NCBI RefSeq assembly: GCF_029952525.1
Contig: NZ_JASAOF010000022.1
Location: 1-64,000, forward strand
Length of the DNA stretch: 64,000 nt
Source: Saccharopolyspora ipomoeae
GTDB lineage: Bacteria; Actinomycetota; Actinomycetes; Mycobacteriales; Pseudonocardiaceae
Reading direction: 5' to 3'
Each line of letters begins with the position of its first letter. The first letter of the stretch is position 1. Position numbers and translations under genes: made by a program. This document shows positions 10,018 through 59,240 of this stretch, in pieces. The notes under the pieces are model-generated. The model ran no database searches. It was not told the origin of the DNA and saw nothing but the letters and a program-made list of their open reading frames with translations.

Positions 10018-10089
10018 GGTGACCCGATTTCCATGGAAGTCAGGGACCGGATTTCCATGGAAATCGGGGTTCCGACTTCCATGGAAATC
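10018..10089. repeat. Array A1: three palindromic 16-bp units at 24-bp period
   Basis: GGTGACCC (10018-10025) is followed by units at 10026-10041, 10050-10065 and 10074-10089, with 8-bp spacers. The middle unit GATTTCCATGGAAATC is a perfect palindrome and the outer two each differ at one position. Centres are exactly 24 bp apart. It lies between the SGNH gene stop and the thiolase gene, both rightward. Confidence 0.9.
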
Positions 10090-10113
10090 GGGTCCCCGGC
10101 CGGACCCCGGGGT

Positions 10114-10127
10114 ACCGACCGGTCGGT
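10114..10127. promoter_or_regulatory. Operator-like palindrome upstream of thiolase
   Basis: ACCGACCGGTCGGT is a perfect 14-bp palindrome about 100 bp before the thiolase ATG. It resembles operators of TetR-type regulators of lipid catabolism. No regulator gene is adjacent, so the partner is not known. Confidence 0.5.
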
Positions 10128-10229
10128 TTGGGGGTTGTTGGTGAGTGGCGTCACCGACAGGATGGGGGCAGCGGCTCTAAAGTGACTCGTCAGTAACCGC
10201 ACGCGCCCCGGCGAACGAAGGAGTTCCCC

Positions 10230-11450
10230 ATGCCCGAAGCAGTCATCGTCTCCGCTGCGCGCTCCCCCATCGGCCGCGCCGGGAAGGGATCGCTGAAGGA
10301 CATCCGCCCGGACGACCTCACCGCGCAGATCGTCAAGGCCGCGCTGGACAAGGTCCCCGAGCTCGACCCGAACGACATCGACGACCTGATGCTCGGCTGC
10401 GGTCTGCCCGGCGGTGAGCAGGGCTTCAACATGGCCCGCGTCGTCGCCGTGCTCCTCGGCCACGACCAGCTGCCCGGCACCACCATCACCCGCTACTGCT
10501 CGTCGAGCCTGCAGACGACCCGGATGGCGCTGCACGCCATCAAGGCCGGCGAGGGCGACGTGTTCATCAGCGCCGGTGTCGAGACGGTGTCCCGCTTCGC
10601 CAAGGGCTCCTCGGACTCGCTGCCCGACACCCACAACCCGATCTTCGCCGACGCCGAGGCCCGCACCCAGCAGACCGCCGAGCAGGGCGCGGAGAACTGG
10701 ACCGACCCGCGCGAGCTCGACGTCGTCCCGGACGTCTACATCCCGATGGGCCAGACCGCCGAGAACCTGGCGCGCCTGAAGGGCATCAGCCGCGACGAGA
10801 TGGACGACTTCGGCGTCCGCTCGCAGAACCTCGCCGAGAAGGCCATCGCCAACGGCTTCTGGTCGCGCGAGATCACCCCGGTCACCCTCCCCGACGGCAC
10901 CGTCGTCTCCGCCGACGACGGCCCGCGCGCGGGCGTGACCAAGGAGGGCGTGTCCGGCCTCAAGCCGGTGTTCCGCCCCGACGGCCGGATCACCGCCGCC
11001 AACTGCTGCCCGCTGAACGACGGCGCCGCCGCCCTGGTGATCATGAGCGACACCAAGGCCAAGGAGCTCGGCCTGACTCCGCTGGCCCGCGTGGTGTCGA
11101 CCGGCGTGTCCGGCCTGTCGCCGGAGATCATGGGCCTCGGCCCGGTGGAGGCCTCCAAGCAGGCCCTCAAGCGCGCCGGCATGAGCATCGACGACATCGA
11201 CCTGGTGGAGATCAACGAGGCGTTCGCCGCGCAGGTCATCCCGTCCTACCAGGACCTGGGCATCCCGCTGGAGAAGCTGAACGTCAACGGCGGCGCGATC
11301 GCCGTGGGCCACCCGTTCGGCATGACCGGCGCCCGCATCACCACCACGCTCATCAACTCCCTCCAGTTCCACGACAAGCAGTTCGGCCTGGAGACCATGT
11401 GCGTCGGCGGCGGCCAGGGCATGGCCATGGTCCTGGAGCGCCTCTCCTGA
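10230..11450 (+). CDS. Acetyl-CoA acyltransferase (thiolase)
   Basis: 406 residues, ATG at 10230 with AAGGAG 6 nt upstream. Thiolases cleave 3-ketoacyl-CoA with CoA, or condense two acyl-CoA, through a covalent acyl-cysteine. Visible are the nucleophilic cysteine in YCSSSLQ (Cys90), NEAFAAQ (about 332-338), the catalytic histidine in GHPFGMTG (His361) and the second cysteine in CVGGGQG (Cys391). The length and TAxxxRY-type N-terminus fit degradative FadA-type enzymes. The position next to the GDSL esterase matches fadA3 (Rv1074c). An operator-like palindrome upstream suggests control by a lipid-responsive repressor. Confidence 0.92.
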
Positions 11451-11459
11451 TCCCCGCGC

Positions 11460-11555
11460 GGTGACCCGATTACGGCAGTTTTCAGGGACCCGATTACGGC
11501 AGTTTTCAGGGACCCGATTACGGCAGTTTTCAGGGAACGGATTACGGCCGTAATC
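11460..11555. repeat. Array B1: four 16-bp units at exact 24-bp period
   Basis: GGTGACCC (11460-11467) precedes units starting at 11468, 11492, 11516 and 11540. The first three read GATTACGGCAGTTTTC and the last is the perfect palindrome GATTACGGCCGTAATC. Spacers are AGGGACCC twice and AGGGAACG. It lies between convergent genes, 10 nt after the thiolase stop. Confidence 0.92.
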
Positions 11556-11580
11556 CGTGTTGCGAGCGGAGCGAGCAGCG

Positions 11581-11617
11581 AAAAGGCCGCCATCCCCGGT
11601 GGGGGTGGCGGCCTTTT
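11581..11617. terminator. Bidirectional terminator between thiolase and BI-1 genes
   Basis: Arms 11581-11597 and 11601-11617 pair over 17 positions (one T-G) with a 3-nt loop. The AAAA/TTTT ends give U-tracts in both directions. It lies between convergent genes. Confidence 0.85.
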
Positions 11618-11638
11618 CGGGCCTTGCGGGGAGCTGCG

Positions 11639-12430
11639 TCAGTCGCTGCTGGTGAAGTAGGACAGCAGGCGCAGGATCTCCAGGTACAGCCAGACCAGCG
11701 TGGTCATCAGGCCGAACGCGATGTACCAGGCGAACTTGGCGTCGACACCGCTGCGGATCGCCTTGTCGGCGGCGTCGAAGTCCAGCAGGAAGCTGAACGC
11801 CGCGATGCCGATGCACAGCAGGCTGAAGCCGATGCCCAGCGGACCCGCCTCGCGCAGCCCCAGGCCACCGGCCATGAAGAAGCTGGCGACCAGGTTGACC
11901 AGCATCAGCACCGCCGCACCCGCGACCGCGCCGATGATCCACTTGGTCAGCTTCGGCGTCACCCGGATCGCGCCGGTCTTGTAGACGACCAGCATCGCGG
12001 CGAAGACGCCGAGGGTGCCGACGACCGCCTGCATGATGATCGCCGAGCCGAAGCTCGATCCGAACACGTAGCTGATGCCGCCGAGGAACACGCCCTCGAA
12101 CGCCGAGTAGGCGACGACCAGCGCCGGGCGCACCTTCTTGGTGAAGACGATGACCAGCGAGATGACCAGGGCGATCAGCGCCGCGGGCAGCGCCAGCACG
12201 ACCGCGGGCGGACCGACCAGGTAGGTCAGCGCCGCGGTGATCACCGCCAGGGTGAGGGTGATCGCGGTCTTGGTGACGACGTCGTCGATCGTCATCGGGC
12301 GCGCGGTCTGCGGCGGAGCAGCCGGCGCCTGGCCGTAGGGCGACTGCTGGCCCTGGCCGTAGTTGAAGTTCGCGTAGCCACCGGCCATTTCCGGCAGCTT
12401 GCGGAACGCGGGGTTGCTCGTTGTGCGCAA
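11639..12430 (-). CDS. Bax inhibitor-1/YccA family membrane protein
   Basis: 263 residues. The TTG at 12430 is preferred because GGAGG lies 5 nt upstream; the nearby ATG is in another frame. A soluble Gly/Gln/Pro-rich N-terminus of about 50 residues (NFNYGQGQQSPYGQ) precedes about seven transmembrane helices spanning residues 60-255, with the family-typical features of a long run of helices and acidic residues near the C-terminus (VWLYLEILRLL and final SSD). Family members are proposed pH-sensitive calcium leak channels, and the bacterial role is unclear. It has a single-gene unit with a bidirectional terminator downstream and a terminator-bounded yidC-like gene upstream. Confidence 0.9.
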   Translation of the reverse strand: MRTTSNPAFRKLPEMAGGYANFNYGQGQQSPYGQAPAAPPQTARPMTIDDVVTKTAITLTLAVITAALTYLVGPPAVVLALPAALIALVISLVIVFTKKVRPALVVAYSAFEGVFLGGISYVFGSSFGSAIIMQAVVGTLGVFAAMLVVYKTGAIRVTPKLTKWIIGAVAGAAVLMLVNLVASFFMAGGLGLREAGPLGIGFSLLCIGIAAFSFLLDFDAADKAIRSGVDAKFAWYIAFGLMTTLVWLYLEILRLLSYFTSSD

Positions 12431-12526
12431 CTCATCCTCCTGGGCGTTCTTGCGCCGTCACCAGATCCAACGACCGGCGGTCCCGATCGGTTCCCGTTTC
12501 GGTAAAACCGGACTTTACCCGACGCA

Positions 12527-12559
12527 AAAGGCCGGTGGACACAAGATCCACCGGCCTTT
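12527..12559 (-). terminator. Intrinsic terminator after the YidC-like gene
   Basis: Arms 12527-12539 and 12547-12559 pair over 13 bp with a 7-nt loop, and the minus-strand transcript ends in TTTT. It starts 14 nt after the stop at 12573. Confidence 0.88.
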
Positions 12560-12572
12560 ACCTGCGAGTTAT

Positions 12573-13607
12573 CTAACGCCGCTTCTTCGCCCTGGACGCC
12601 TGCTTGCCCGGGCGGTTCTTCGACTGGTTCTTCTTGCCACCCGGCTTGCCACCGGGTCGCTGCCCCGGCGCGGGCTTGGACGGCTTGGCCTCGGTCGCGG
12701 TGGCCGTGGCCGACTCGCCCTCCTCCTCCGAGGCGGGCTTGCCGCCGTCGCGCACCGGCTTCTGGCCCGGCTTCGGGCGAGGCGTGGCCTTCTTCGCCTC
12801 GATCTCCTTCTGCCGCTCGCGCTCCTGCTCGGCGTCGATCTTCTTGGTCAGGAAGTGCTGCTGACCCAGCGTCCAGACGTTGTTGGCCAGCCAGTACAGC
12901 AGCACCGCGATCGGCAGGAACCAACCCGAGATCAACGCACCGATCGGCGCGATGTACATCATGAACTTGGCCATCATGGCCGACTGCGGGTTGGCCATCG
13001 AGGCGTCGGTCTGCTTCTTCACCGACAGGCGCATGGTGAAGTAGGTCGCGATCGAGGCGATCACCATCAGCGGGATCGCGACGATCATCATCGACGTCCG
13101 GTCGGTGCCGAACAGCGCCAGCTCCTGCTCGGGCTGGGTGATCCAGTTCGAGAGCTTGGCGCCGAAGATGTTCGCCTGGATGAACGAGTCCACCCCGGCC
13201 TTGTCGAAGACGAAGTTGCTCTCCGCGCCCGGGTGGAAGTTCCGCAGGACGTGGAACAGGCTCAGGAAGACCGGGATCTGCAGCAGCGCGGGGAGGCAGC
13301 CGCCGAGCGGGTTGACCCCGTGCTCGGACTGGAGCTTCTGCATCTCCTGCGCCATGCGCTGGCGGTCGTTCTTGTACTTCTCGCGCAGCTTCTGGATGTG
13401 CGGCGCGAACTTCGCCATCTTGCGGCCGGCCCGCATCTGGCTCAGCGCGGGCTTGATCAGCACCGTGCGCAGGGTGAACACCAGGAAGAACACGGCCAGG
13501 GCCCAGGCGAACCCGTTGTCCGGCCCGAGCACGGCTCCGAAGATCTTGTGCCAGAACCACAAGATCGCCGAAACCGGGTAGAGGATGAAGGAGAAGAAAC
13601 TTTCCAC
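12573..13607 (-). CDS. YidC/Oxa1 family membrane insertase, probably a second copy
   Basis: 344 residues from a GTG at 13607 with AGGAG 8-9 nt upstream. It inserts proteins into the cell membrane alone or with Sec. The five-helix Oxa1 core covers about residues 15-265: ALSQMRAGRKMAKFAPHIQKLREKY-type cytoplasmic hairpin, GGCLPALLQIPVFLSLFHVL, then the C-terminal helices IGALISGWFLPIAVLLYWLANNVW. A long Lys/Arg/Pro/Gly-rich tail (about 275-344) probably contacts ribosomes. It is not in the rpmH-rnpA-yidC origin cluster, so it is likely a second YidC-type protein specialised in substrate or condition. It is flanked by a Pro-rich membrane protein gene in the same direction. Confidence 0.9.
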   Translation of the reverse strand: MESFFSFILYPVSAILWFWHKIFGAVLGPDNGFAWALAVFFLVFTLRTVLIKPALSQMRAGRKMAKFAPHIQKLREKYKNDRQRMAQEMQKLQSEHGVNPLGGCLPALLQIPVFLSLFHVLRNFHPGAESNFVFDKAGVDSFIQANIFGAKLSNWITQPEQELALFGTDRTSMMIVAIPLMVIASIATYFTMRLSVKKQTDASMANPQSAMMAKFMMYIAPIGALISGWFLPIAVLLYWLANNVWTLGQQHFLTKKIDAEQERERQKEIEAKKATPRPKPGQKPVRDGGKPASEEEGESATATATEAKPSKPAPGQRPGGKPGGKKNQSKNRPGKQASRAKKRR

Positions 13608-13875
13608 TCAGCTACTCCTGGTCATGGGCCGCTGGAGAGCAAGCGCCCGACGTCGTTTCCGTCCGGCGCAACCCGGGCCGTGCGTGCGCGGCTGAACCCG
13701 CCTGAAACGCAGGTCCGGCCAGTTCAAGGGTGCCATGCCCCGACGCGGGTCGGTGTCCGCCCCCTGACAGCCCGCGTCGCCGCACTGCGGTCACGGAACG
13801 TTTGCGCAGGTCACGCGGACAGGTGACATGCGCTATACCGGACCCGGCGAGTTCCGGGTCCGGGTCGACGCAGCG

Positions 13876-14700
13876 TCACCGACGTAGCGCTCGGGCGATG
13901 ATCCGACCGGCGAACAGGTAGATCAGCGCGGCGAGGCCGTAGTTGAGCACCAGACCGATCGTCGCGTCACCGGGCGTGAACACGTCGCCCAGGCCGAGCA
14001 CGAAGAACTTCGCGGTGCCGTAGGTGAAGGCCACGAAGTCGTTGTCCTGGTTCGCACCCGTCACCGAGAAGATGATGTGCAGCACGAACACCAGCGCGAT
14101 CAGCGCGCTGAGCACCTGCACGGTGCGCCCGATGGCGTCGGCGCTGGGCCCGCGGAACCCGTCCCGGTCACGCCGGTCGTAGTCCCGGTCGCGGTCGCGC
14201 TCCCGCTCGCGGCGGTCGTAGTCGTCGCGGTAGCGATCGCGCTCCGGCTCGCGGTAGCGGTCGTCGTACCTGTCGTCGTAGCGGTCGTACCGGTCGTCCC
14301 GGTAGCCGTACGGATCGGCGTACGGGTCGGCGTACGGGTCGTCCCGGTAGCCGCCGACACGGGTCTCCGGGTACGGGTTGTTGGCCGGCGGCTGGTAGCC
14401 GGGAACTCCGGCGGGCGGCTGCTGCACCGGAGGCTGCCCCTGCGGGTACTGCGGCGGCTGCCCACCCATCGGCGGCTGCGGCGGCATCTGCTGCGGCGGC
14501 GGTCCGCCCTGCGGCGGCCCCGGCGGCTGCCCTCCGGGTGGCGGGGGCGGCATCTGACCCGGCGGGACCTGCGGAGGCCTCGGCTGACCGCCCTGCGGCG
14601 GGCCGGGCGGCTGCGGACCGCCCTGCGGCGGTCCCGGCTGCTGCGGTCCTGGCTGTCCCGGCACCGGTCGTCCGGTCCGGGGGTCTCGCTCGTAGGCCAT
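13876..14700 (-). CDS. Pro-rich and Asp/Arg-rich membrane protein
   Basis: 274 residues. Residues 1-110 are Pro/Gly/Gln-rich (GPPQGGPQPPGPPQGG-like). Residues about 115-180 are a highly charged Asp/Arg/Tyr run with DRYDRYDDRYDDRY repeats. Residues about 190-274 hold two or three hydrophobic helices ending in AGRIIARALRR. It resembles actinobacterial YggT-like or hypothetical membrane proteins only loosely, and I give no family. The design suggests a disordered, possibly phase-separating cytoplasmic N-terminus attached to a small membrane domain. No clear ribosome site is visible before the ATG at 14700, so it may be leaderless. The function is unknown. Confidence 0.75.
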   Translation of the reverse strand: MAYERDPRTGRPVPGQPGPQQPGPPQGGPQPPGPPQGGQPRPPQVPPGQMPPPPPGGQPPGPPQGGPPPQQMPPQPPMGGQPPQYPQGQPPVQQPPAGVPGYQPPANNPYPETRVGGYRDDPYADPYADPYGYRDDRYDRYDDRYDDRYREPERDRYRDDYDRRERERDRDRDYDRRDRDGFRGPSADAIGRTVQVLSALIALVFVLHIIFSVTGANQDNDFVAFTYGTAKFFVLGLGDVFTPGDATIGLVLNYGLAALIYLFAGRIIARALRR

Positions 14701-15094
14701 GAGCGCGCATTGTCGCGGTTACCCCACCCACTGCGAAACCCCCACCCCGCAGCCGCACTCGATGAGGCGCACCACAGCGACCGCCTCGTCGGCGCTTCGC
14801 GACGTCCAGATCGCCACCGCGGGCCGCGCTTCGCACCGTCCGAACAGGACGGACCGACCGGGGTCCGCACCTCCGAGGATTCACCGAACGGATACCGGAA
14901 CGCGACCGGGGGCACATCGCCGGACCCGGTTCGCGGAGCGCGAGCCGGGAGGCGTCCCGCAGCTGCGCGACATCGGGGAAGCGGTTCGTCGAACGCGAAA
15001 AGCCCTCGGCAGCAACGGAAGTCACCCGGAAGAGATTGCTCGCTTGCGCTGATGGGGGAAGTACGGGACGAGTTGACCCGTTAGATTGGAAAAG
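14701..15094. other. 394-nt intergenic gap, nothing identified
   Basis: The region between the Pro-rich membrane protein start (14700, leftward) and the tRNA holds no ORF with convincing codon use or ribosome site. It should contain the promoter of the leftward gene. I see no repeat or strong hairpin. Confidence 0.6.
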
Positions 15095-15168
15095 TGCCCC
15101 CGGTCGGGTTCGAACCGACACTCTGACGATTTTAAGTCGTCTGCCTCTGCCAGTTGGGCTACGGGGGC
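15095..15168 (-). tRNA. Short-variable-arm tRNA with anticodon UAA (Leu by anticodon)
   Basis: The minus strand folds as a complete cloverleaf: acceptor GCCCCCG/CGGGGGC, D arm with GG, anticodon stem GACGA/TCGTC with loop CTTAAAA, a 5-nt variable region (AGAGT), T arm GTCGG-TTCGAAC-CCGAC and discriminator A (15095). No CCA is encoded. The anticodon at loop positions 34-36 is TAA, which reads UUA leucine codons. Leucine tRNAs are normally class II with a long variable arm, like bldA of Streptomyces, and this one is class I. The charging identity is therefore uncertain. The tRNA is intergenic, downstream of the ATP-grasp gene on the same strand. Confidence 0.85.
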
Positions 15169-15178
15169 CAGGCTTCGC

Positions 15179-15196
15179 ACCGGCACGGGTGCCGGT
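15179..15196 (-). terminator. Short hairpin between the ATP-grasp gene and the tRNA
   Basis: Arms 15179-15186 and 15189-15196 are complementary over 8 GC-rich bases with a 2-nt loop, 72 nt downstream of the stop at 15268. There is no U-tract. It is a weak terminator candidate. Confidence 0.35.
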
Positions 15197-15267
15197 ACGC
15201 CACTACGACGCGGCCGGGCCCCGTAAGGTTCCCGCGGTCGTGAAACTCCCACGCACTCGTGGTCTGA

Positions 15268-16401
15268 TCACCAGCTGCCCCATTCGCCCACCGTCGCCGA
15301 CTCCGCCAACTCGTCGTACCGCGACCGCACCCAGTCGTGCACCGCCGCGGAGACGTCCTTGCTGTCCGCGCGCTGCTCGAACCAGCGCCAGTCGCAGTTG
15401 ACGTTGACCTCGAGGAACACCCACTCGCCGGCCACCCGCAGCAGGTCGAAGCCCGCCACGTCCAGCCGCCAGCGCTCGCACAGCCGCAGCAGCGGTGCGA
15501 CCAGCTCCTCGGGAAGGTCGACCGGTTCGACCACGACCGACTCCGGGTCGACCCACAGCTGCGCCGGGTCCAGCTTGTTCACCCGGAACCCGATCGCGCG
15601 CCGTCCCACGACGAACACCCGCAGCTCCTCGTCGGCGTCGAGGAACTGCTGCACCAGCACGGGTGCCGGTTCGCGCGCCTCGCCGCCGGTTCGGCGGACG
15701 TCCAGCGGCTGCGGGAAGAGCCCGCGCAGCGCACCGGGTTCGGGTTCGAGCATGTGGTGACCGGCGGTCTTGACGATGCACTGCGCGCCACCGGGGCGGC
15801 TGCGCCCGGGCATCGTGGTCACGGCGGTGCGCGGCACGCGCAGGCCGACCGACGCCGCGCCCTGAAGCTGCGTCAGCCGGTCGAGCCCTTCCCTGGACCG
15901 CCGCGTGTTCACCTGTCCCCAATCGTCCCGGGTGGTCAGCCAGTCACCGACCGCCTGCCACTGCTCCCGAACATAGGACCCGTAGACGGTTGCGGGATCA
16001 ACGGGTACGGCGGTCATGTCGAAGTGTCGCCGCCAGACGAGTACCGGGCGCAAGAGCCAGCGCTGGAATTCGATCAGAGGAGTATCGGCGTAGACCGTCA
16101 GTGGCAGGTCCAGACACCGATCGGCGTCGATGCGCACCATGCGGATGTCGTGCTCGGCCAGCGCCACGGAGAGGTCGTTCATCTCCATGTCGGTCGCGCG
16201 CGAGAGCACGACGACGCAGGGAACCGGATCGCCCGGCTCCTCCTCGACGAGCCCCGCCTGGTACATCCGCTCCTGGAAGTCCAGCGGGGTGTCCGGTGCG
16301 CGGACGAAGTAGTCCTGCCCCTGCAGCAGCACCGGCGTCGGGCGGAGTTCGGGCTCGGCCCGTTCCCCCGGTTCAGCGGGCCGGTCCTCGGCCGCGCACA
16401 T
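15268..16401 (-). CDS. ATP-grasp enzyme of the MvdD/graspetide-synthetase type
   Basis: 377 residues. The layout matches peptide macrocyclases of the MvdD type: an N-terminal pre-ATP-grasp domain (about 45-170) with VLVWRRHF, then SREGLDRLTQLQGAASVGLRVPRT-like entry to the ATP-grasp domain, IVKTAG, ELRVFVVG and the metal/ATP motif FLEVNVN with Glu331 and Asn333. Such enzymes use ATP to form ester or amide links between Asp/Glu and Ser/Thr/Lys side chains of a precursor peptide. The ATG at 16401 starts 2 nt after the stop of a tiny upstream gene, so the two are coupled. No protease, transporter or methyltransferase lies beside it. A RimK-like ligase acting on another substrate remains possible. 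Confidence 0.8.
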   Translation of the reverse strand: MCAAEDRPAEPGERAEPELRPTPVLLQGQDYFVRAPDTPLDFQERMYQAGLVEEEPGDPVPCVVVLSRATDMEMNDLSVALAEHDIRMVRIDADRCLDLPLTVYADTPLIEFQRWLLRPVLVWRRHFDMTAVPVDPATVYGSYVREQWQAVGDWLTTRDDWGQVNTRRSREGLDRLTQLQGAASVGLRVPRTAVTTMPGRSRPGGAQCIVKTAGHHMLEPEPGALRGLFPQPLDVRRTGGEAREPAPVLVQQFLDADEELRVFVVGRRAIGFRVNKLDPAQLWVDPESVVVEPVDLPEELVAPLLRLCERWRLDVAGFDLLRVAGEWVFLEVNVNCDWRWFEQRADSKDVSAAVHDWVRSRYDELAESATVGEWGSW

Positions 16402-16403
16402 GG

Positions 16404-16532: not shown

Positions 16533-16589
16533 CCCTTCCCCCGCGTGACGCATCCTTTCAGGTGAAGACTTCGGCTCAGTCTTCGTTTT

Positions 16590-16617: not shown

Positions 16618-16657
16618 TCGGCTGTCCACCGCTCGGACGAGGATCTTGGAAACATGA

Positions 16658-16687: not shown

Positions 16688-16712
16688 GGGTGTCCATCGG
16701 CTCGGTGAGGCG

Positions 16713-20455: not shown

Positions 20456-20811
20456 TGTTCGGTTACATCGCTTCGATGAAGGCGAAGCCCGGCAAGCGGG
20501 ACGAGGTCGTGGCGCTGCTGGTGGGCGGGGTGGAGAACCTGCGGCAGCACGGGTGCGAGTCGTACGTGGTGGCGACCTCGGCGACCGATGACGACACCAT
20601 CTGGGTCACCGAGGTGTGGCGGAGCCGGGAGCACCACGCGGCGTCGCTCGAACTGCCCGAGACGCGGAAGGCCATCGGCGAGGCGATGCCGCTGCTGGCC
20701 GGGGAGTTCACCGGGCAGGCGACCTCGATCGCCGGGGGTCTCGGCGTTCTCCGGGCCGACTGGTGTCCACTCGATGCGGAAGTCGACAGTTCTTCCTCGA
20801 ATCACCCATGA
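20452..20811 (+). CDS. Antibiotic-biosynthesis-monooxygenase-fold (ABM) protein
   Basis: 119 residues from the ATG at 20452, overlapping the DUF3224 stop by 4 nt. The core FGYIASMKAKPGKRDEVVALL and YVVATSATDDDTIWVTEVWRSREHHAASLE is the ferredoxin-like ABM fold of putative quinol monooxygenases, small cofactor-free dimers. The last residues (SSSSNHP) and the stop codon are encoded inside the 70-bp dyad element D1 (20784-20853), so the natural C-terminus appears to have been altered by that element. The enzyme activity is inferred only from the fold. Confidence 0.85.
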   Translation: MMFGYIASMKAKPGKRDEVVALLVGGVENLRQHGCESYVVATSATDDDTIWVTEVWRSREHHAASLELPETRKAIGEAMPLLAGEFTGQATSIAGGLGVLRADWCPLDAEVDSSSSNHP

Positions 20812-20853
20812 TCAATGTCCGAAATGTCCGGACAGTATTCATTAAAACTGTCC
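20784..20853. repeat. Dyad element D, copy 1 (70 bp)
   Basis: It aligns without gaps to 54394-54463. The 24-bp core at 20805-20828 is identical to 54415-54438. The ends GACAGTT and AACTGTC are inverted, and CCCCTgGTGAC follows on the right. The left arm has diverged and overlaps the end of the ABM gene. It lies between convergent genes. Confidence 0.8.
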
Positions 20854-33675: not shown

Positions 33676-33683
33676 GGGACGAA

Positions 33684-33918
33684 GTTCTCATGAAAACGTC
33701 CCCACCCCCACGACGAGACACCACTCCCCAGTGGTGGGGAAGTTTTCATGAAAACTTCCCCGTCCGCACACCAAGACACCACCGATGACCTCGGTCTTCG
33801 CAGTCGGGGACCGTTTCGTGGGTCGGGGAGGTTTTCATGAAAACCTCCCCGTCACCGACCACGGATCCGGTGGGGGCGGTGACCCTGAGTCGGCGAAGTT
33901 TTCATGAAAACTTCGCCG
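33684..33918. repeat. Cluster C1: four GTTTTCATGAAAAC palindromes
   Basis: Centres lie at about 33690.5 (one mismatch), 33748.5, 33837.5 and 33904.5. The perfect palindromes extend to 26 bp (33736-33761 and 33825-33850, flanked by GGGGA/TCCCC) and 28 bp (33891-33918, flanked by CGGCG/CGCCG). It fills the gap between convergent genes ending at 33675 and 33927. Confidence 0.92.
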
Positions 33919-34975: not shown

Positions 34976-37129
<2,154 letters not shown>

Positions 37130-37948
37130 TCAGCGGCGCTGGTTGCCTGCTGCTGCGTAGGTCTCGGCCAGGCCGAAGACCTTCTGGGCGTATTCGACGG
37201 AGTTGTTGTAGGACATGACGCCCTGCCACCAGCCGGAGCCGGTGGACATGTCGCGGCCGCCGGCGCACAGGTAGCGCCCGGCGGAGACGGCCGCGTCGTC
37301 GAGGTTCTGCGGATCGCCGCGGCCGTCGCCGCTGCCGTCGGTGGCCCACTTGTTCCAGGTCGTGGGGATGAACTGCATCGGCCCGACGGCGCGGTCGTGC
37401 TCGACGTCGCCGTCGAGGGCGCCCCCGTCGCTGTCCGGGATGAGCCGGACGTTGGGGCCGCCGTCGAGCTTGATGCCGATGATCGGCGTCGACGGCCGGG
37501 CGTCCTCGCGCAGCTGCCGGTCGCCGAAGCGGCCGTGGTTGGACTCGATGCGGCCGATGCCGGCGAGCGTGGTCCAGGAGATCCGGCAGTTCGGCTGGTG
37601 CTGGCGCAGCGCCAGGTCGGCGTTGACGTAGGAGACGACGGCGCGGGCCGGGATGTCGACCACGGCGGAGACCTGGTTCGCCCACTCGCGCACCGGGTCG
37701 ACGCCGGGCTGCGGCTGGGGTTGCGGCTCCACCTGCGGGGCCTGCACCGGCGGCGCGATCGAGCCGGGCGCGACCTGCGCGGGCTTGGGGTCCTCGGGGC
37801 GCGGCGGCGCGGCGACCGGAGCCTTCTCCGGCGTGCCGAGGAGGTGGACCAGGGCGACGCCGACGACCATCGCGGCCAGCAGCGACACGACCAGCGCGAG
37901 GCGTCCGAGGGCCGCGAGCACCGTTGGCGAGATCCTGATCACCCGCAC
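37130..37948 (-). CDS. Membrane-anchored lytic transglycosylase
   Basis: 272 residues. An N-terminal helix (about 12-35, LGRLALVVSLLAAMVVGVALVHLL) acts as signal anchor, followed by a Pro/Gln-rich linker (40-85). The transglycosylase domain (about 90-265) has the catalytic Glu in TTLAGIGRIESNHGRFG, then DRAVGPMQFIPTTWNKWATDGSGDG and AGRYLCAGGRDM. It is a paralogue of the genes at 30393 and 38008. It cleaves peptidoglycan strands outside the membrane. It is tandem with the lipoprotein paralogue after 59 nt, in the lpqU position near eno and mazG. Array B2 lies beyond its stop. Confidence 0.9.
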   Translation of the reverse strand: MRVIRISPTVLAALGRLALVVSLLAAMVVGVALVHLLGTPEKAPVAAPPRPEDPKPAQVAPGSIAPPVQAPQVEPQPQPQPGVDPVREWANQVSAVVDIPARAVVSYVNADLALRQHQPNCRISWTTLAGIGRIESNHGRFGDRQLREDARPSTPIIGIKLDGGPNVRLIPDSDGGALDGDVEHDRAVGPMQFIPTTWNKWATDGSGDGRGDPQNLDDAAVSAGRYLCAGGRDMSTGSGWWQGVMSYNNSVEYAQKVFGLAETYAAAGNQRR

Positions 37949-39733: not shown

Positions 39734-39788
39734 ACCTCGATTGTCCCAACCGGGGACCACCGAGGTTCAGCGACGTGCACCACACGAA

Positions 39789-39960
39789 GTTCTCATGAAA
39801 ACCTCCCCACCCCACGGGTCCCGAGGGGACCGAAGTTTTCATGAAAACCTCCCCACCAACACACCCGGGAACCGACGTCCCCACGCACGGGGGGACGGAA
39901 GTTTTCATGAAAACCGTGTCGTCACGGGGGCCTGGTGAGGAGGGAAGTTTTCATGAAAAC
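39789..39960. repeat. Cluster C2: four GTTTTCATGAAAAC palindromes, mirrored spacing
   Basis: Centres lie at 39795.5 (one mismatch), 39841.5, 39907.5 and 39953.5, giving steps 46, 66 and 46. Perfect 14-bp cores lie at 39835-39848, 39901-39914 and 39947-39960. It lies between the mazG start and the stop of the SurA-like gene, both leftward. Confidence 0.92.
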
Positions 39961-39983
39961 GTCGCCGACCCAGGGTTCGGGGA

Positions 39984-40910
39984 TCAGGAGGACTTGTCCT
40001 CGGGGTCGATGCGGAAGCCCGTGGTCTCGTCCTCGTTAGGGGCGGCCTGGAGGCCGATCTGGTCCCAGACGCCGTAGCGGGGGCTGAGCTCGACGCCGAC
40101 GCGGTCGGCGGTGGCGCCCAGCAGGAAGCTGCCCACTCCCTGCAACGTCTGGTCGTCGACGGCGCTCGTCGGGTTCGGTGACGGCTTCGCCTCGCGCTCG
40201 CGGATGAGCGCGACCAGCCACTGGCCCGAGTTCGGTTCCGGTTCGAAGGCCAGCACCGTGCCCGGTTCGGCGCCGAACAGCGGCGTCGAGGCGGCGAGCT
40301 TCGGGCTGTCCACCGCCCGCAGCCGCTGCCCGGCCGCCGCGGGAACACCGGCGCCGGCGTCGGCGGCGATCAGGTCGCGCACCGCGGCGTCGCCCCGGGA
40401 CATCTGCTGAGCCTTGCGCTCGGCGTCGGCGCGGGTCGTGGCCTGGGTGAAGTCGAAGGTGACGGCCAGGCCGTCGAAGTAGCGGCGCCCCAGCTCGGTC
40501 ACCAGCGCCTCGCTGCGCGCCATGTCGTGCAGGTTCTCCGGCGTGAAGATCTTGCCCCGGGTCGCCTGCGGCCCGCCCCACTGGTTGATCATGTCGGTGA
40601 CCTGCTGCTCCGACACCGTCAACCCGTCCTGGCGCGCGGCCTGCGCGACGAGCTCCTTGCGCACCAGCTGCCCGGCCAGGGTCCGGCCGAGCTCGTCGTA
40701 CTGGCCCTGCCGGCGCAGCTGCGGCTTCAGCTCCGGTTCCTTGGCCAGCACCTCGGAGAACCAGGACTGCACCTCGGACACCGGGATCCGCTGGTCACCG
40801 ACGATCGCGGCCGCACCCGCCTGACCAGGCCCGGACCCGCAACCCGACAGCAGCACACCGGCAACGGCGAGAGACGCGAACAAGCGGCCACGGCGCAGCG
40901 AGATCGTCAC
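39984..40910 (-). CDS. SurA N-terminal-domain lipoprotein
   Basis: 308 residues from a GTG at 40910. The signal MTISLRRGRLFASLAVAGVLLSGC gives lipobox Cys24. Residues about 35-150 resemble the SurA N-terminal chaperone domain (AAIVGDQRIPVSEVQSWF, then GRTLAGQLVRKELVAQAARQDGLTVSEQQVTDMINQWGG). No parvulin prolyl-isomerase motif is clear in the C-terminal half, so it is probably a surface chaperone or an unknown lipoprotein, not an isomerase. It sits between mfd (upstream) and mazG, a common actinobacterial arrangement. A role in folding exported proteins is inferred. Confidence 0.85.
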   Translation of the reverse strand: MTISLRRGRLFASLAVAGVLLSGCGSGPGQAGAAAIVGDQRIPVSEVQSWFSEVLAKEPELKPQLRRQGQYDELGRTLAGQLVRKELVAQAARQDGLTVSEQQVTDMINQWGGPQATRGKIFTPENLHDMARSEALVTELGRRYFDGLAVTFDFTQATTRADAERKAQQMSRGDAAVRDLIAADAGAGVPAAAGQRLRAVDSPKLAASTPLFGAEPGTVLAFEPEPNSGQWLVALIREREAKPSPNPTSAVDDQTLQGVGSFLLGATADRVGVELSPRYGVWDQIGLQAAPNEDETTGFRIDPEDKSS

Positions 40911-44757: not shown

Positions 44758-45429
44758 TCACCGGGTCATCGGCTTGGGCTTGTGCTCCAGCCCGGACAGC
44801 CCGTTCCAGGCGAGGTTGACCAGGTGAGCGGCCACCTCCTCCTTCTTGGGCTTGCGCGCCTCCAGCCACCACTGGCCGGTCAGCGCGACCATGCCCACCA
44901 GCGCCTGGCTGTAGAGCGGGGCGAGCTTGGCGTCGTAGCCGCGGGCGGAGAACTGCAGCCCCAAGATGTGCTCGACCTGGCTGGCGATGTCGTTGAGCAG
45001 GCTGGAGAAGGTGCCGCTGCTGCTGGCCACCGGCGAGTCGCGGACCAGCACGCGGAAGCCGTCGGTGTTCTCGTCGATGTAGTCGACCAGGGCGTGCGCG
45101 GCCTGCTCCAGCAGCACCCGGGGGTGCCCGGCGTCGAGCGCCGAGACGATCAGGTCCAGCAGGTCGCGCATCTCGCGGTCGACCACGACCGCGTAGACGC
45201 CCTCCTTGCCGCCGAAGTGCTCGTAGACCACTGGCTTGGAGACCCCGGCGCGGTGCGCGATCTCCTCGATGGAGGTCCCGTCGAACCCCTTCTCCGCGAA
45301 CAGCGCGCGCGCCACGTCCAGCAGCTGCTGGCGTCGTTCCTTACCGGTCATCCGCGCGCGCGGCCGCGCTGGAGCCCGCGTGGGCGCCGCCGTCTCGGGC
45401 GCGTTCCGCCCACGTCTCCGTCCTGCCAC
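44758..45429 (-). CDS. TetR family transcriptional regulator
   Basis: 223 residues from the GTG at 45429 (other starts are possible). A basic Ala/Pro/Arg-rich N-terminal stretch precedes the DNA-binding domain (about 32-80, RRQQLLDVARALFAEKGFDGTSIEEIAHRAGVSKPVVYEHFGGKEGVY). The ligand domain is all-helical. The position matches Rv1019 beside mfd. The fatty-acid desaturase gene just upstream on the same strand has an operator-like dyad at its promoter, and TetR proteins often control desaturases, so this is its likely target, though the target remains inferred. Confidence 0.88.
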   Translation of the reverse strand: MAGRRRGRNAPETAAPTRAPARPRARMTGKERRQQLLDVARALFAEKGFDGTSIEEIAHRAGVSKPVVYEHFGGKEGVYAVVVDREMRDLLDLIVSALDAGHPRVLLEQAAHALVDYIDENTDGFRVLVRDSPVASSSGTFSSLLNDIASQVEHILGLQFSARGYDAKLAPLYSQALVGMVALTGQWWLEARKPKKEEVAAHLVNLAWNGLSGLEHKPKPMTR

Positions 45430-45653
45430 AACGACCCACCCTAAGACCTGTGTCGTGGTTACTTTGCGTGGCGGTGCGGGTAGCGGAACCTGACACGCCG
45501 CCTGGACTCCGTGCGCCACTCCTGATGTATGCCAATACGCGGCGTCGCGGCGTACTCGCCAGACGACGTGTCAGAACCCGCGGCAGTGCCGGCTGAGTCC
45601 CACACCTGAAACAACGGCTCCGCCGCACTCGCGGTGCAGGCCCGAGACACAGA

Positions 45654-45685
45654 GGTGCCCGCGCGGCGATCACCGCGCGGGCACC
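45654..45685 (-). terminator. Hairpin terminator after the desaturase gene
   Basis: Arms 45654-45666 and 45673-45685 are perfectly complementary over 13 GC-rich bases with a 6-nt loop, 14 nt after the desaturase stop. Confidence 0.8.
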
Positions 45686-45699
45686 GTGGTTCGGCGCGG

Positions 45700-47197: not shown

Positions 47198-47268
47198 TCC
47201 GCCGTGGTGTAAAGGCAGCACCTCGGATTTTGGTTCCGATGGTCCAGGTTCGAATCCTGGCGGCGGAG
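47198..47268 (+). tRNA. tRNA-Gln (anticodon UUG)
   Basis: Acceptor TCCGCCG (47198-47204) pairs with CGGCGGA (47261-47267), and the discriminator is G. Anticodon stem TCGGA/TCCGA encloses loop TTTTGGT, with anticodon TTG reading CAA. The T arm CCAGG-TTCGAAT-CCTGG is complete. No CCA is encoded. It lies 68 nt before the GGDEF gene start. Confidence 0.95.
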
Positions 47269-51909: not shown

Positions 51910-51923
51910 CGTCCGGAGGTGGG

Positions 51924-52078
51924 GAAGTTTTCATGAGAACTTCGGTGACGAAGTGTCGGGACAGTTTTCATGAAAACTTCCCCACGATGAGGATCTCCAC
52001 GGACCTTCCGTCCCCACGGGGAGGGAAGTTTTCATGAAAACTTCGAGGGTCGTGGGTGGGGACGGTTTTCATGAAAAC
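51924..52078. repeat. Cluster C3: four GTTTTCATGAAAAC palindromes, mirrored spacing
   Basis: Centres lie at 51933.5, 51970.5, 52034.5 and 52071.5, giving steps 37, 64 and 37. Palindromic extents are 20 bp (51924-51943, one G-T), 16 bp (51963-51978), 20 bp (52025-52044) and 14 bp (52065-52078). It lies between convergent prs and nitroreductase genes. Confidence 0.92.
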
Positions 52079-52094
52079 TTCCCCCATCACAGGG

Positions 52095-53072: not shown

Positions 53073-53690
53073 GTGTCCGAGGTACGAATCGCAGTCGAGC
53101 AGCGCAACGAGTTCGGCAAGGGAGCGGCCCGCCGCACCCGCCGTGCCGGCAAGATCCCCGCGGTCCTCTACGGCCACGGCGCCGACCCGAAGCACCTGTC
53201 GCTGCCCAGCGTCGAGTTCGCCCGCGCCGTCCGTGAGAACGGGCACAACGCGGTTCTGACCCTCGAGGTCCAGGGCTCCGCCGACGAGCTCGCGCTGACC
53301 AAGACCATCACCGCCCACCCGATCAAGGGCTACATCGAGCACGTGGACCTGCTGCTGGTCAAGCGCGGCGAGAAGGTCACCGTCAACGTCCCGATCGTCA
53401 TCACCGGCGACGCCGCCTCCGGCGCCCTGGTCAGCCAGGAGCTCACCGAGGTCGAGATCGAGGCCGAGGCGCTGCACATCCCGGAGCAGGTCGAGCTGTC
53501 CATCGAGGGCCTGGAGATCGGCACCCAGCTGCACGTCTCCGACCTCAAGCTGCCGAAGGGCTCGACCCTGCAGGGCGACCCGGAGGCCATGGTCGTGAAC
53601 ATCTCCGAGGCCGCCGCCTCGATGGAGGAGGAGTCGGCCACCGAGGGCGAGGAGCCCGCCGCCGAGGAAGAGACCTCCGAAGAGGCCTGA
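53073..53690 (+). CDS. rplY: 50S ribosomal protein L25/Ctc (long form)
   Basis: 205 residues from the GTG at 53073, with AAGGAG 9 nt upstream. The N-terminal L25 domain (about 1-95) binds 5S rRNA ([27 protein letters not shown]), and the C-terminal TL5-type beta domain covers about 96-185. The last 20 residues are Glu-rich. The two-domain Ctc form is a general-stress protein in several Gram-positives. It is followed by pth after 85 nt, the conserved actinobacterial pair Rv1015c-Rv1014c. Confidence 0.95.
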
Positions 53691-53775
53691 GCCTGACGAC
53701 GTCGGGCGCACCCGCGCCGTCCCCTCGACCGGGGGCGGCGCGGGGCGTGCCTCCGCACGAGGGAGACTTACTTCC

Positions 53776-54351
53776 GTGACCACTGCGGACGCGGTTTCTG
53801 TGATCGTCGGGCTGGGCAACCCCGGTCCGCGCTACGAGGGCAACCGGCACAACATCGGTTTCCTCGTCGCCGACGAGCTCGCCGCGCGCATCGGCGGCAA
53901 GTTCAAGTCCCACAAGTCCGGTGCCGACGCCGTCGAAGGACGGCTGTCCGGCGCCCGGTCGGTGCTGGTCAAGCCGCGTTCGTTCATGAACCTCTCCGGC
54001 GGCCCGGTCGCCGGGGCGGTGAAGTTCTTCAAGACCCCACCCGAGTCGCTGATCGTCATCCACGACGAGCTGGACCTGCCCTTCGGCACGGTCCGGATCA
54101 AGAAGGGCGGCGGCGAGAACGGCCACAACGGCCTGCGCTCCATCTCGAAGTCCCTGGGCACCCGCGACTACCTGCGGGTCCGCTTCGGGGTCGGCCGCCC
54201 GCCCGGCCGGATGGATCCGGCCGACTACGTCCTCAAGGACTTCTCGACGGTCGAGCGCAAGGAGCTCGCCTACTTCGTCGACCTCTGCGCGGACGCGACG
54301 GAAGCCCTGGTCACCAAGGGCCTCGAAGCCGCCCAGAACGAGTTCCACTGA
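53776..54351 (+). CDS. pth: Peptidyl-tRNA hydrolase
   Basis: 191 residues from a GTG at 53776. It recycles peptidyl-tRNA released from stalled ribosomes. The catalytic residues are present: Asn15 and His25 in [18 protein letters not shown], Asn72 in SFMNLSGG and Asp97 in [24 protein letters not shown] binds the tRNA. It lies downstream of rplY, probably in the same transcript. It is followed by dyad element D2 between convergent genes. Confidence 0.96.
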
Positions 54352-54393
54352 CGTTCCGCCGCTGACGTCCCGTCGGGAGCCCTCCCGGGCACC

Positions 54394-54463
54394 GGACAGT
54401 TTTAGCCATAATTGCCCATGATCAATGTCCGAAATGTCGGGACAATTATGGCTAAAACTGTCC
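54394..54463. repeat. Dyad element D, copy 2 (70 bp)
   Basis: Perfect 21-bp inverted arms at 54394-54414 and 54443-54463 enclose a 28-nt loop whose first 24 nt (54415-54438) are identical to 20805-20828. The outer ends are GGACAGTT/AACTGTCC. The right end is followed by CCCTAGTGAC, which contains the stop codon of the leftward gene at 54465. It lies between convergent pth and acyl-AMP ligase genes. Confidence 0.88.
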
Positions 54464-54464
54464 C

Positions 54465-56120
54465 CTAGTGACCCGGCACCAGGTCCGCAGTGGCCGCGCG
54501 GCGGAGCTTCCCCGAAGGGGTCTTCGGCAGCGCTCCCGGCGGGAGGACGACGACCTCGGCCGGGCGCACGCCGACGGCGTCGACGACGCGGGAGACGACC
54601 TCCTTGCGCAGCGCCTTCTCCGCCTCCTCCGACCCGGCCTGCTTGGACTCCAGGACGACCGCGAAGCGCTCGCGCCTGCTGCCCGCCTCCAGCCGGACCG
54701 CCGCCGCGTTGCCGGGACGCACTCCGGAGACCTCGCAGGCGGCTCGCTCGATGTCGATCGGGTAGATGTTGCGGCCGCCCATGATGATCACGTCCTTGCG
54801 ACGCCCGCAGATCACCACCTGCCCGTCCGCCAGGTACCCCTCGTCGCCGGTGTCCAGCCACCCCTCGGCGTCCTGCACCTCCCGCGGGCCGTTCACCGTG
54901 AGGTAGCCGGGGGTCACCGCCTCGCCGCGGATCCGCAGCTGCCCGACCTGCCGGTCGCCGAGCACCCGCCCCTCGTCGTCGACGACGTCGACCTCCAGGC
55001 CCGGCAGCGGACGCCCCAGCAGCGCGAACCGACGAGCCTGCGGCGCGCCGGGGTCCACCGGCTCCGCCACGCGCCGCTTCTCCAGGGCCTCCGCGTCGAC
55101 CGAGTCGGTCTCGACGCCCCGCCGCAGCGGCGCGAACGACACCGCCAGCGTCGCCTCGGCCATGCCGAACGCGCACACCATGCAGTCCGGGGCGAGCCCG
55201 AAGCGCGCGCCCGCGTCGGTGAACGCCTGCGCGGCCGCCGGGTCGATCGGCTCCGCGCCGTTGAGCGTGAACCGCAGGCTGGACAGGTCGAACTCCTCGT
55301 CAGTGCGCGCCATCCGGCGCCCCACCACCGCGTAGGCGAAGTTCGGCGCCGCGGTGACCGTGCCGCGGTACTTGCTGATCAGCTTCGGCCACAGCAGCGG
55401 ACCGGCGAGGAAGTCCGACGGCGTGACCTTGACCGCGGACATCCCGATCGCCATCGGCACCGTCAGGCACCCGACCATCCCCATGTCGTGGAACAGCGGC
55501 AGCCAGGACACGGCCACGTCCCGCTCCGGGTCGAGCTCGGCGGCGGTGACCATCGCGCGCAGGTTCGCGTGCAGGTTGCGGTGGGTGATCCGCACGGCCT
55601 TCGGGTCCGCGGTCGAACCGCTGGTCAGCTGCAGCAGCGCGGTGGCGTCCTCGTCGACCTCGACCGGTCCGGGCAGCGGTTCGCCCTCGGAGGCGGCGAG
55701 CCCGGCGAGGTTGCGGTAGGCGATGCCGTTGTCGTCCAGGACCCCGCCGAGCTGCTCGAACGGCGGCCCGAGCAGCACCAGCCCGGCGCCGATCATCGAC
55801 AGCACCTTGAGCGTGTCCTCGGCCCAGTGGCCGAGGTCGGTGCGCGGGGTCGGCTGGTGCAGCATCGTCACGCTCCCGCCGCCGAGCCACACCGCCTGCA
55901 CGGCGGTCCCGATCAGACCGGGATCGGCCGCGAGGATCGCGACGGCCGCGCCGGGCCGCAGCTGATCGCCCAGCCCGCCGGCCATCCGCAGCGCGTCGTC
56001 GTGCACCTGCGCCCACGTCCGGAACCGGGGCTCCTCGGGTTCTCCGGTGGTGAGGCCGCGAGCGCCCTCCCCGGAGTTCCGCCGAGCCGACGCCACCAAG
56101 GTCTCCACGAACCGACTCAT
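54465..56120 (-). CDS. Fatty-acyl-AMP ligase-like adenylate-forming enzyme
   Basis: 551 residues from the ATG at 56120. The AMP-binding superfamily is shown by LTSGSTADPK (165-174), SWLPLFHDMGMVG, GMAEATLAV and GWLDTGDEGYLADGQVVICGRRKD, with the catalytic lysine in TPSGKLRRAA (Lys538). SWLPLFHDMGMVG and NGAEPI are typical of fatty-acyl-AMP ligases (FAAL/FadD32-like), which load acyl chains onto carriers, but the FAAL-specific insertion cannot be judged by eye. The position matches pks16 (Rv1013). It follows the ABC-F gene on the same strand after 47 nt. Confidence 0.88.
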   Translation of the reverse strand: MSRFVETLVASARRNSGEGARGLTTGEPEEPRFRTWAQVHDDALRMAGGLGDQLRPGAAVAILAADPGLIGTAVQAVWLGGGSVTMLHQPTPRTDLGHWAEDTLKVLSMIGAGLVLLGPPFEQLGGVLDDNGIAYRNLAGLAASEGEPLPGPVEVDEDATALLQLTSGSTADPKAVRITHRNLHANLRAMVTAAELDPERDVAVSWLPLFHDMGMVGCLTVPMAIGMSAVKVTPSDFLAGPLLWPKLISKYRGTVTAAPNFAYAVVGRRMARTDEEFDLSSLRFTLNGAEPIDPAAAQAFTDAGARFGLAPDCMVCAFGMAEATLAVSFAPLRRGVETDSVDAEALEKRRVAEPVDPGAPQARRFALLGRPLPGLEVDVVDDEGRVLGDRQVGQLRIRGEAVTPGYLTVNGPREVQDAEGWLDTGDEGYLADGQVVICGRRKDVIIMGGRNIYPIDIERAACEVSGVRPGNAAAVRLEAGSRRERFAVVLESKQAGSEEAEKALRKEVVSRVVDAVGVRPAEVVVLPPGALPKTPSGKLRRAATADLVPGH

Positions 56121-56167
56121 GTGACGCAGCTTACGATCCGGGACTCGCCGAGGCATTCCCCGACGCG

Positions 56168-57949
<1,782 letters not shown>

Positions 57950-57968
57950 CGAGTTTTCGACTACTCCG

Positions 57969-58934
57969 TCACGCGTGGACTTGGGGCGGGGTGGGGCGGT
58001 TGGCGGGTTCCTCGGTGAGGACCTTCGCCCCCGGCACGGGACCGTGCGCGACCCGGACGGTGCGGCACACGCCGGCACCGGAGAGCTCCGCGGCCACCCG
58101 GACCGCCTCCTCGCCGTCGGTGCACAGGAAGGCGCAGGTCGGGCCGGAGCCGGAGACGACCCCGGCCAGCGCGCCCGCCTGCACGCCCGCACGCAGCGTG
58201 CGGCGCAGGTTCGGGCGCAGCGAGACCGCCGCGGCCTGCAGGTCGTTGCCCAGCAGCAGCGCGAGCTGCCGGGGATCGCCGGAGGCCAGCGCCTCCAGCA
58301 GCGGTTCCACCTCGCCGATCCGGCCGTTGCCGTTCTCGGCGCGGAGCCGGTCGAGCTCGCCGTAGACGCCGGGCGTGCTCAGCCCTTCCTTGTCCAGGGC
58401 GATGACCCAGTGGAAGGTGTGGCGGGCCAGCACCGGCACGAGGCTCTCGCCGCGGCCGGTGCCCAGCGCGGTGCCGCCCTGCAGCGAGAACGGGACGTCG
58501 CTGCCGATCTGGGCGGCGATCTCGCTGAGCTCGTCGCGGCCGAGTTCCAGGCGCCACAGCTGGTTGACGGCCTGCAGCGTGGCGGCGGCGTCGGCGCTGC
58601 CACCGGCCATGCCGCCGGCGACCGGGATTCCCTTGTTGATCGAGATGCGCAGGCCCGGGTTCTCCGGGTCGCGGCCGCTGCGCTCGGCGAGCAGCCGCAC
58701 CGCCTTCCACGCGAGGTTCTCGGGACCGGTGGGGACGGAGTCCGCCCCCTCGCCCTGGACCTCGAGGGCGGGCTCGTCGGCCGCCAGCACGGTGACGTCG
58801 TCGGTCAGCGACAAGGCCTGGAAGACGGTGACCAGCTCGTGGTAGCCGTCCGGACGCGCGTCACCCACCGAAAGGTGGAGGTTCACCTTCGCCGGGACGC
58901 GGACGGTGATCGGTGTAGGAACCACGGAGAGCAC
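57969..58934 (-). CDS. ispE: 4-diphosphocytidyl-2-C-methyl-D-erythritol kinase
   Basis: 321 residues from a GTG at 58934; an internal GTG nine nt later is possible. It phosphorylates CDP-methylerythritol in the non-mevalonate isoprenoid pathway. GHMP-kinase motifs: [24 protein letters not shown] (substrate base), [17 protein letters not shown] (phosphate loop, about 102-118) and [12 protein letters not shown]. It starts the ispE / ABC-F run on the minus strand, with the ABC-F gene 19 nt downstream. The ksgA-ispE link of Rv1010-Rv1011 is broken here by the metNIQ block and array B3. Confidence 0.95.
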
Positions 58935-59033
58935 ACCAAGAGCCTACGTGCCCGGAGAACCTCACCGCCCACTTCCCTGCGCACACCGTTCCCGAAGTCC
59001 GGATCAGCCACGATCAACCCCGACAGACGCCCC

Positions 59034-59240
59034 GATTACCGCCGTATCCCGGCACCCGATTACCGCCGTGTTCCGGCACCCGATTACGGCGGTATTCCGG
59101 TACCCGATTACCGCCGTATTCCGGTACCCGATTACGGCGGTAATCCGGCGGCGGATTACGGCGGTAATCGGGTCTCCCCTGGGTGGGGAACGGAATACGG
59201 CCGTAATCGGGGGTCCGATTACGGCCGTATTCGGGTCACC
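59034..59240. repeat. Array B3: eight 16-bp units, 24-bp period
   Basis: Units start at 59034, 59058, 59082, 59106, 59130, 59154, 59193 and 59217 (steps 24 five times, 39, then 24). Half-sites read inward are GATTACGG, GATTACCG, GAATACGG, GAATACCG, GAACACGG and GGATACGG. Spacers are mostly CGGCACCC and CGGTACCC. The anchor GGTGACCC is on the minus strand at 59240-59233, next to the metQ end. Confidence 0.92.

Follow-up and report, generated by a model that had tools for sequence, protein, structure and literature searches.

Four arrays of short palindromes lie between genes in a 64,000-nucleotide stretch of the genome of Saccharopolyspora ipomoeae (contig NZ_JASAOF010000022.1, positions 1 to 64,000; the window), and they raise the question of what is repeated there and why it stands behind genes. 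The initial annotation described all four by one formula, with units of two inward-facing half-sites and an 8-bp spacer at a period of 24 bp, and proposed a protein-binding platform or an array grown by slippage. The best explanation found here, held tentatively and at somewhat less than even confidence, is that these are REP-like repeats whose family-A arrays act as operators of a putative lineage-specific protein at gene ends, binder and function both being inferred. Genomes are cited by handle where needed; G000 is the window's genome, G063 is S. flava DSM 44771 and G217 is S. endophytica KCTC 19397.

Repeat arrays in the window

All four arrays were found where the initial annotation had placed them, and the unit of 16 bp plus an 8-bp spacer was confirmed. 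The single formula did not survive. Arrays 2 to 4 belong to a family with the pattern GAWTAC-N4-GTAWTC (family A), and array 1, with units of the type GATTTCCA/TGGAAATC, does not fit the proposed half-site GAnnACnG and belongs to a different and wider family with the pattern GATTTC-N4-GAAATC (family C); one family for all four was therefore rejected. The window also holds three clusters of a family B and two elements of a family E, none of which the initial annotation had listed. The features are as follows.

10018..10089, plus strand: array 1, family C; GGTGACCC anchor at 10018-10025, units at 10026, 10050 and 10074; tandem gap with a GDSL-lipase-like gene (9085-10008) upstream and a thiolase gene (10230-11450) downstream
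11460..11555, plus strand: array 2, family A; anchor at 11460-11467, units at 11468, 11492, 11516 and 11540; convergent gap between the thiolase gene and a Bax-inhibitor-1-like gene (11639-12388, minus strand)
11581..11617, no strand assigned: terminator-like GC-rich hairpin with A and T tracts at its flanks, adjoining array 2
20785..20852 (about), no strand assigned: diverged family-E copy, loop exact, stem decayed
33683..33912, no strand assigned: family-B cluster of four units (33683, 33741, 33830, 33897); convergent gap
36920..37096, plus strand: array 3, family A; anchor at 36920-36927, seven units at 36928, 36952, 36980, 37004, 37033, 37057 and 37081; convergent gap, with a TPR gene (36524-36901) to its left and an SLT-domain gene (37130-37921, minus strand) to its right
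39788..39961, no strand assigned: family-B cluster of four units (39788, 39834, 39900, 39946); downstream of a leftward gene (39984-40910)
51926..52079, no strand assigned: family-B cluster of four units (51926, 51963, 52027, 52064); convergent gap, past a terminator-like hairpin
54394..54463, no strand assigned: family-E element, a long hairpin with loop CATGATCAATGTCCGAAATGTC
59034..59240, minus strand: array 4, family A; eight units at 59034, 59058, 59082, 59106, 59130, 59154, 59193 and 59217, anchor at 59233-59240 on the minus strand; downstream of a leftward NlpA-lipoprotein (metQ-like) gene (59280-60047)

The spacer GGTGACCC is the outer spacer in all four arrays. As reported, it begins 10, 10 and 19 nt past the stops at 10008, 11450 and 36901; in array 4 its first base, read on the minus strand, is 59240, and the metQ-like gene has its 3' end 40 nt away, at 59280. 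It is not a universal anchor, for GGTGACC or GGTCACC borders just 14 of 79 family-A arrays. The 24-bp period is dominant across those 79 arrays, where it accounts for 222 of 282 steps (28-30 bp in 29, 39-40 bp in eight, other lengths in 23), and is not strict in the window: the steps of array 3 are 24, 28, 24, 29, 24 and 24, and array 4 has one step of 39. The unit at 11516 in array 2 (GATTACGGCAGTTTTC) has non-complementary halves.

Family E, detected in G000, G063 and G197, is a separate repeat with a stem of about 20 bp and a conserved loop, CATGATCAATGYCCGAAATGTC. In one gap compared in three species the loop is kept, and the G197 stem differs on both sides from the G000/G063 stem, as for a structure-dependent mobile element or RNA. 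The gap at 45352-45699 is 348 bp long in G000 and 176-182 bp in six relatives; the additional 170 bp or so carry GGTAGCGGAACCTGACACG close to the beginning and CGTGTCAGAACCCGCGG close to the end. They have the look of a further interspersed repeat, and pieces similar to them were seen by eye in other gaps of relatives. A search of the window against Rfam returned a SAM riboswitch (62125-62214) and tRNA genes (47198-47268 and 15095-15168) and no match at the arrays.

Copy number and position relative to genes

The arrays exceed chance. With up to three mismatches, GATTACNGCNGTAATC matched the window at 20 places, 19 of which belong to arrays 2-4, as against 0.48 expected by chance, and GATTTCNATNGAAATC matched at three places only, all in array 1 (0.26 expected). 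Further arrays exist throughout the genome, as the initial annotation had anticipated: GATTACNGNNGTAATC, with up to two mismatches, occurs at 245 places on each strand of G000 (6.63 Mb), and the reversed control at 0 and 1. A scan that used no sequence pattern searched 2.1 Mb, including regions fetched for their arrays, for paired occurrences, at a given lag, of 16-bp palindromes with 7 or more of their 8 positions complementary. Across lags 16 to 49, intergenic DNA gave 44 such pairs at lag 24 and between 0 and 20 at each of the others (20 at 37, 14 at 48 and 13 at 46); coding DNA gave seven at lag 24.

Position was examined in 884 kb of long stretches (C11:1-420000, C33:1-400000 and the window), of which the final 20 kb of C11, like the window itself, were not array-blind. 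Genes were called by a home-made codon-usage finder, which assigned 87.5% of the DNA as coding. Only seven of 164 unit matches to families A, B, C and E fell inside called genes (five B, two C), and controls with reversed patterns, or a re-ordered string for C, gave 0 matches. The 125 divergent gaps of at least 40 bp held no unit, and none of 58 occupied family-gap pairs was divergent (P 1e-7 by share of gaps). These 58 pairs were divided equally between convergent and tandem gaps, 29 each, against a background of 88 convergent gaps in 516 (P 9e-9), and in tandem gaps 53 of 73 units lay closer to the upstream stop than to the next start (P 1e-4). The four families are thus repeated, almost entirely intergenic in the stretch examined, and avoid divergent gaps. 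Terminator-like hairpins were present in 6 of 28 convergent gaps with elements and in 9 of 59 without (P 0.55). The absence of depletion, together with the hairpin that adjoins array 2, gives no reason to think that the arrays replace terminators. Inspection by eye showed similar hairpins at the corresponding gap in relatives that lack array 2.

Distribution among genomes

An exact scan for CCCGATTACSGCSGTAATC in genome contigs of 84,980 species, which may not have included the window's own genome, returned 32 stretches; 26 were in S. flava DSM 44771 and S. endophytica KCTC 19397, and the other six were single matches in unrelated metagenome bins. Among 297 genomes of the taxonomic family, taken from a larger group, family A (up to one mismatch) exceeded 100 matches per strand solely in G000, G063 and G217; G091 had 6 and 7, and the rest had 0 to 4. 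All the families were searched in 22 genomes of the genus, where G197 had 1 and 0 matches to family A. Family B was found 297 times per strand in G000, 340 in G063, 71 in G197 and once in G217, with 0 in the other 18 and in the controls. A further family, D, was found 99 and 80 times in G063, 0 and 2 times in G000, 1 and 0 times in G241 and in none of 19 others, and the family-E loop, with both strands summed, 64 times in G000, 50 in G063, 5 in G197 and in none of the remaining 19. Family C was the widest, with at least 85 matches per strand in 11 of the 22 genomes (maximum noted 584, in G161), 25-28 in three (G091, G063 and G275), 2 or 5 in two and 0 or 1 in six; controls gave 0. Outside the genus, GATTTCAATGGAAATC with up to one mismatch had one match in each of four of 115 genomes of the taxonomic family and none in 111. 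The repeat set is genome-wide and, within the searches made, found only in Saccharopolyspora, and its families are kept or lost as wholes by lineage.

Evolution at orthologous gaps

A tree of 40 concatenated proteins from the syntenic region gave ((G000,G063),(G197,(G217,G091))), with G025 and G145 outside and supports of 0.99-1. Where G000 carries family-A arrays of at least three units, family A was present at the orthologous gap in 11 of 11 cases in G063 and in 5 of 7 in G217, rates that are biased upward because most compared regions were fetched for arrays known in one genome or another. The three A arrays of the window retain family A in G063 at 3 of 3 loci and in G217 at 1 of 3. Since family A occupies orthologous gaps in G000, G063 and G217, it is older than their split; given the tree, it was lost in G197, as family B was in G217 and G091. 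The sole family-B remnant of G217 sits in a gap where G000, G063 and G197 have B too. The B arrays of G000 have B in G063 at 4 of 5 gaps, the fifth carrying family E in G063 and G197, and family E of G000 is kept in G063 at 5 of 5. Of the family-C arrays of G000, four have a counterpart in G063, with family D in three and nothing detected in one, and two have a counterpart in G217, both with family C; at the family-C locus of the window the G217 units have a different centre. The detector for family C also picks up some A units, and such rows were counted as A. The gradual drift of one array type that the initial annotation had envisaged is not supported: the same gaps in relatives carry repeats of other families, with loss and replacement specific to lineages. 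In the G197 gap syntenic to 58935-59279, a perfect palindrome of about 40 bp, CGAGAACCGCGGTGATCGAGCTCGATCACCGCGGTTCTCG, stands where G000, G063 and G217 carry A arrays downstream of metQ.

Within vertically inherited arrays, conservation depends on position in the unit. In 11 array pairs (56 units) compared between G000 and G063, the half-site core (positions 1, 2, 5 and 6) was identical at 405 of 412 bases (98%), against 350 of 410 (85%) for spacer positions 3-6 (P 1e-12), 175 of 207 (85%) for the degenerate positions 3 and 7, and 860 of 944 for gap DNA outside the arrays. Because the selection of units in G000 allowed no more than one core mismatch, only the compared base is free of selection. 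Against G217 (7 arrays, 39 units) the core was identical at 182 of 242 bases (75%), the spacers at 125 of 253 (49%) and the gap DNA outside arrays at 717 of 963 (74%); there, with alignment uncertain and unit numbers differing, the core is kept better than the spacers and no better than the rest of the gap.

These histories bear on the strongest rival to operators, namely that the repeats are passengers, mobile but non-autonomous palindromes of a MITE- or REP-like kind that some enzyme copies, that gene 3' ends merely tolerate and whose tandem growth is due to slippage. Dispersal over many loci, differences between close species with one family replacing another at the same gaps, and the presence or absence of whole families across the genus all agree with it. 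The same is true of family C in G161, which forms a compact palindrome of up to 46 bp from two mirrored units, often paired around a hairpin. Ten regions of that genome were read, several of them picked for having two places some 100 bp from each other: six had two palindromes around a hairpin of the GTGTCGGG/CCCGACAC type, a seventh had a related form and three had a single palindrome. These pairs, downstream of genes, make a composite gene-end element of about 140 bp. The position-specific conservation of half-site cores against the sister species speaks against passengers, and no Y1 transposase domain (PF01797; RAYT) was found in G000, G063, G197 or G091. As a full account, passengers are somewhat unlikely; they are nearly as likely as operators, and both may hold.

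Symmetry, spacing and folding

The anatomy of family A was drawn from 318 units selected by GA..AC....GT..TC in and around arrays, with the half-site CSGAWTACBG. The two halves vary independently, the inner dinucleotides agreeing in 128 of 318 units against 136 expected and, with repeated units removed, in 102 of 252 against 104.5; hairpins of single units in family A were rejected on this ground. The nearest outside pair was complementary in 100 of 318 units against 144.6 in shuffled data (z -5.3), and the second outside pair in 294 against 290. The doubled table had 6 entries with C at position 7 of both halves, against about 76 expected from the counts of that position. Step-24 neighbours in the 79 arrays had the same centre in 63 cases, mirrored centres in 29 and neither in 116. 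An array-wide RNA hairpin found no support either: 69 arrays of the 24-bp type, mostly A, folded no better than versions with units and spacers shuffled and flipped (mean z +0.49, s.e. 0.16; 10 below z -1 and 23 above +1). Compared by locus, the outer flanks of the 79 A arrays show weak complementarity (4.65 vs 4.22, s.d. 0.15; top of 500 shuffles 4.71). A stronger signal of about 4.4 s.d. had come from a set of 81 arrays that included two non-A hairpins; in the 79 A arrays it fell to 2.9 s.d., a level reached by shuffles.

The other families look more hairpin-like, and one mechanism need not fit all. In 130 units of family B the two flank pairs nearest the unit covary (z 3.8 and 5.1), and, relative to shuffles, the family-E element folded best (z -9.3), followed by array 1 of family C (z -6.8) and, less markedly, array 2 of family A (z -2.8). 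In G161, 28 of 28 informative family-C pairs at steps of 23-24 bp were mirrored in one sense among the first 100 listed places (by eye).

The repeats might act as RNA, in 3'-end hairpins for terminating transcription or shielding the mRNA, and in convergent gaps would do so for transcripts arriving from either side. Their place just behind stop codons and between convergent genes is that of intrinsic terminators, and the stems of family B, family E and array 1, the mirrored pairs of G161 and the weak complementarity of A flanks speak for such a role. Covariation is nonetheless absent between family-A halves, the nearest outside pair avoids complementarity, and the arrays fold no better than shuffled ones; array 2 adjoins a separate GC-rich hairpin, and terminator-like hairpins are no rarer in gaps with elements. 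Action through RNA is improbable. Another possibility is that a general nucleoid or topology protein binds the repeats at points between convergent genes where supercoils meet, a role with a precedent in BIMEs as gyrase sites. It would suit the preference for convergent gaps and the spacing classes of 24, 28-30 and 39-40 bp, set apart by roughly half a helical turn and one and a half turns. It is highly improbable, sequence loss and replacement between close species being odd for sites of a conserved enzyme.

Comparison with known repeats

REP repeats are described as short, high-copy intergenic palindromes that lie downstream of genes or between convergent or unidirectional genes, are clustered and comprise several types per genome (PMC3733652). 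The present repeats share with REP, BIME and REPIN elements the high copy number, the palindromic build and the place behind genes, and are not without precedent in kind. They differ in the fixed 24-bp step with an 8-bp spacer, in family-A halves that are not kept complementary, and at the foot of family-A units, where the four bases from -4 to -1 are mostly A/C, C, C and S and no GTAG or CGTC tag was found (other families were checked for the tag by eye only). A RAYT/REPIN system was rejected for G000, G063, G197 and G091, in which the Y1 domain was not found; PF01797 was found in 9 of 22 genus genomes, including G217, and in 5 of 14 control genomes. MITEs are likewise dispersed, non-coding and palindromic, and resemble most closely G161 family C and family E; family A differs from them as a tandem array with a variable number of units.

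The initial annotation knew of no described element with this formula. That statement stands in so far as Rfam had no match and ten repeat sequence strings occurred in no paper among open-licence full texts; it is qualified by REP and BIME repeats as a precedent of the kind. By topic, no paper in the same texts was recognised as describing these repeats, and PMC3610266, a possible lead, was unrelated.

Proposed operator arrays at gene ends

Arrays of operators for dimeric proteins share with family A the regular palindromic sites, the conserved half-site core and the free positions, the core standing out against G063 and equalling the gap DNA outside arrays against G217; they differ in that the present arrays lie behind genes rather than at promoters, and the binder is putative. 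The independence of the two halves of a palindromic site and the conservation of its core fit a symmetric DNA-binding protein better than a hairpin. In addition, families that sit behind genes, keep out of divergent gaps and are lost as wholes in particular lineages suggest a factor that is dispensable, specific to its lineage and active where transcription ends. Each family-A unit would then be the operator of a putative dimeric protein that reads CSGAWTACBG half-sites, and the 24-bp step would align several dimers. Once bound, the array would most probably serve gene ends as a roadblock to transcription or as an insulator, alongside ordinary terminators, a role guessed from where the arrays lie. 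Loss of the factor in a lineage would leave its sites to decay genome-wide.

Several observations count against operators. Spread to many loci needs a copying process, which operators do not explain; the core is no better kept than gap DNA against G217; A flanks are weakly complementary; and families B, C and E look more like hairpins, array 1 folding very stably. Genes beside four divergent-looking arrays were checked by eye as a clue to the binder and gave no lead. The protein-binding platform of the initial annotation is partly supported, by further arrays across the genome, by the empty divergent gaps of the 884 kb and by cores kept sequence-specifically between sister species. Tandem growth fits orthologous arrays that vary in unit number, as well as the counts of same, mirrored and other centres among step-24 neighbours.

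A bolder extension, which is unlikely, is that operator arrays mark gene ends as a protein-based form of insulation and that the specificity of lineage-specific factors is rewritten over time, the site family changing genome-wide as the places are kept; its basis is the set of compared loci that show family C in this strain and family D in S. flava. Even if the repeats are passengers, they would be REP-like repeats without a known transposase, whose mode of spread is testable in these genomes. If the half-site reading is right, the genus marks many gene ends with protein-binding arrays in a code that differs between close species, which would offer a natural experiment in the co-evolution of sites and factors and compact 24-bp gene-insulating modules for actinomycetes.
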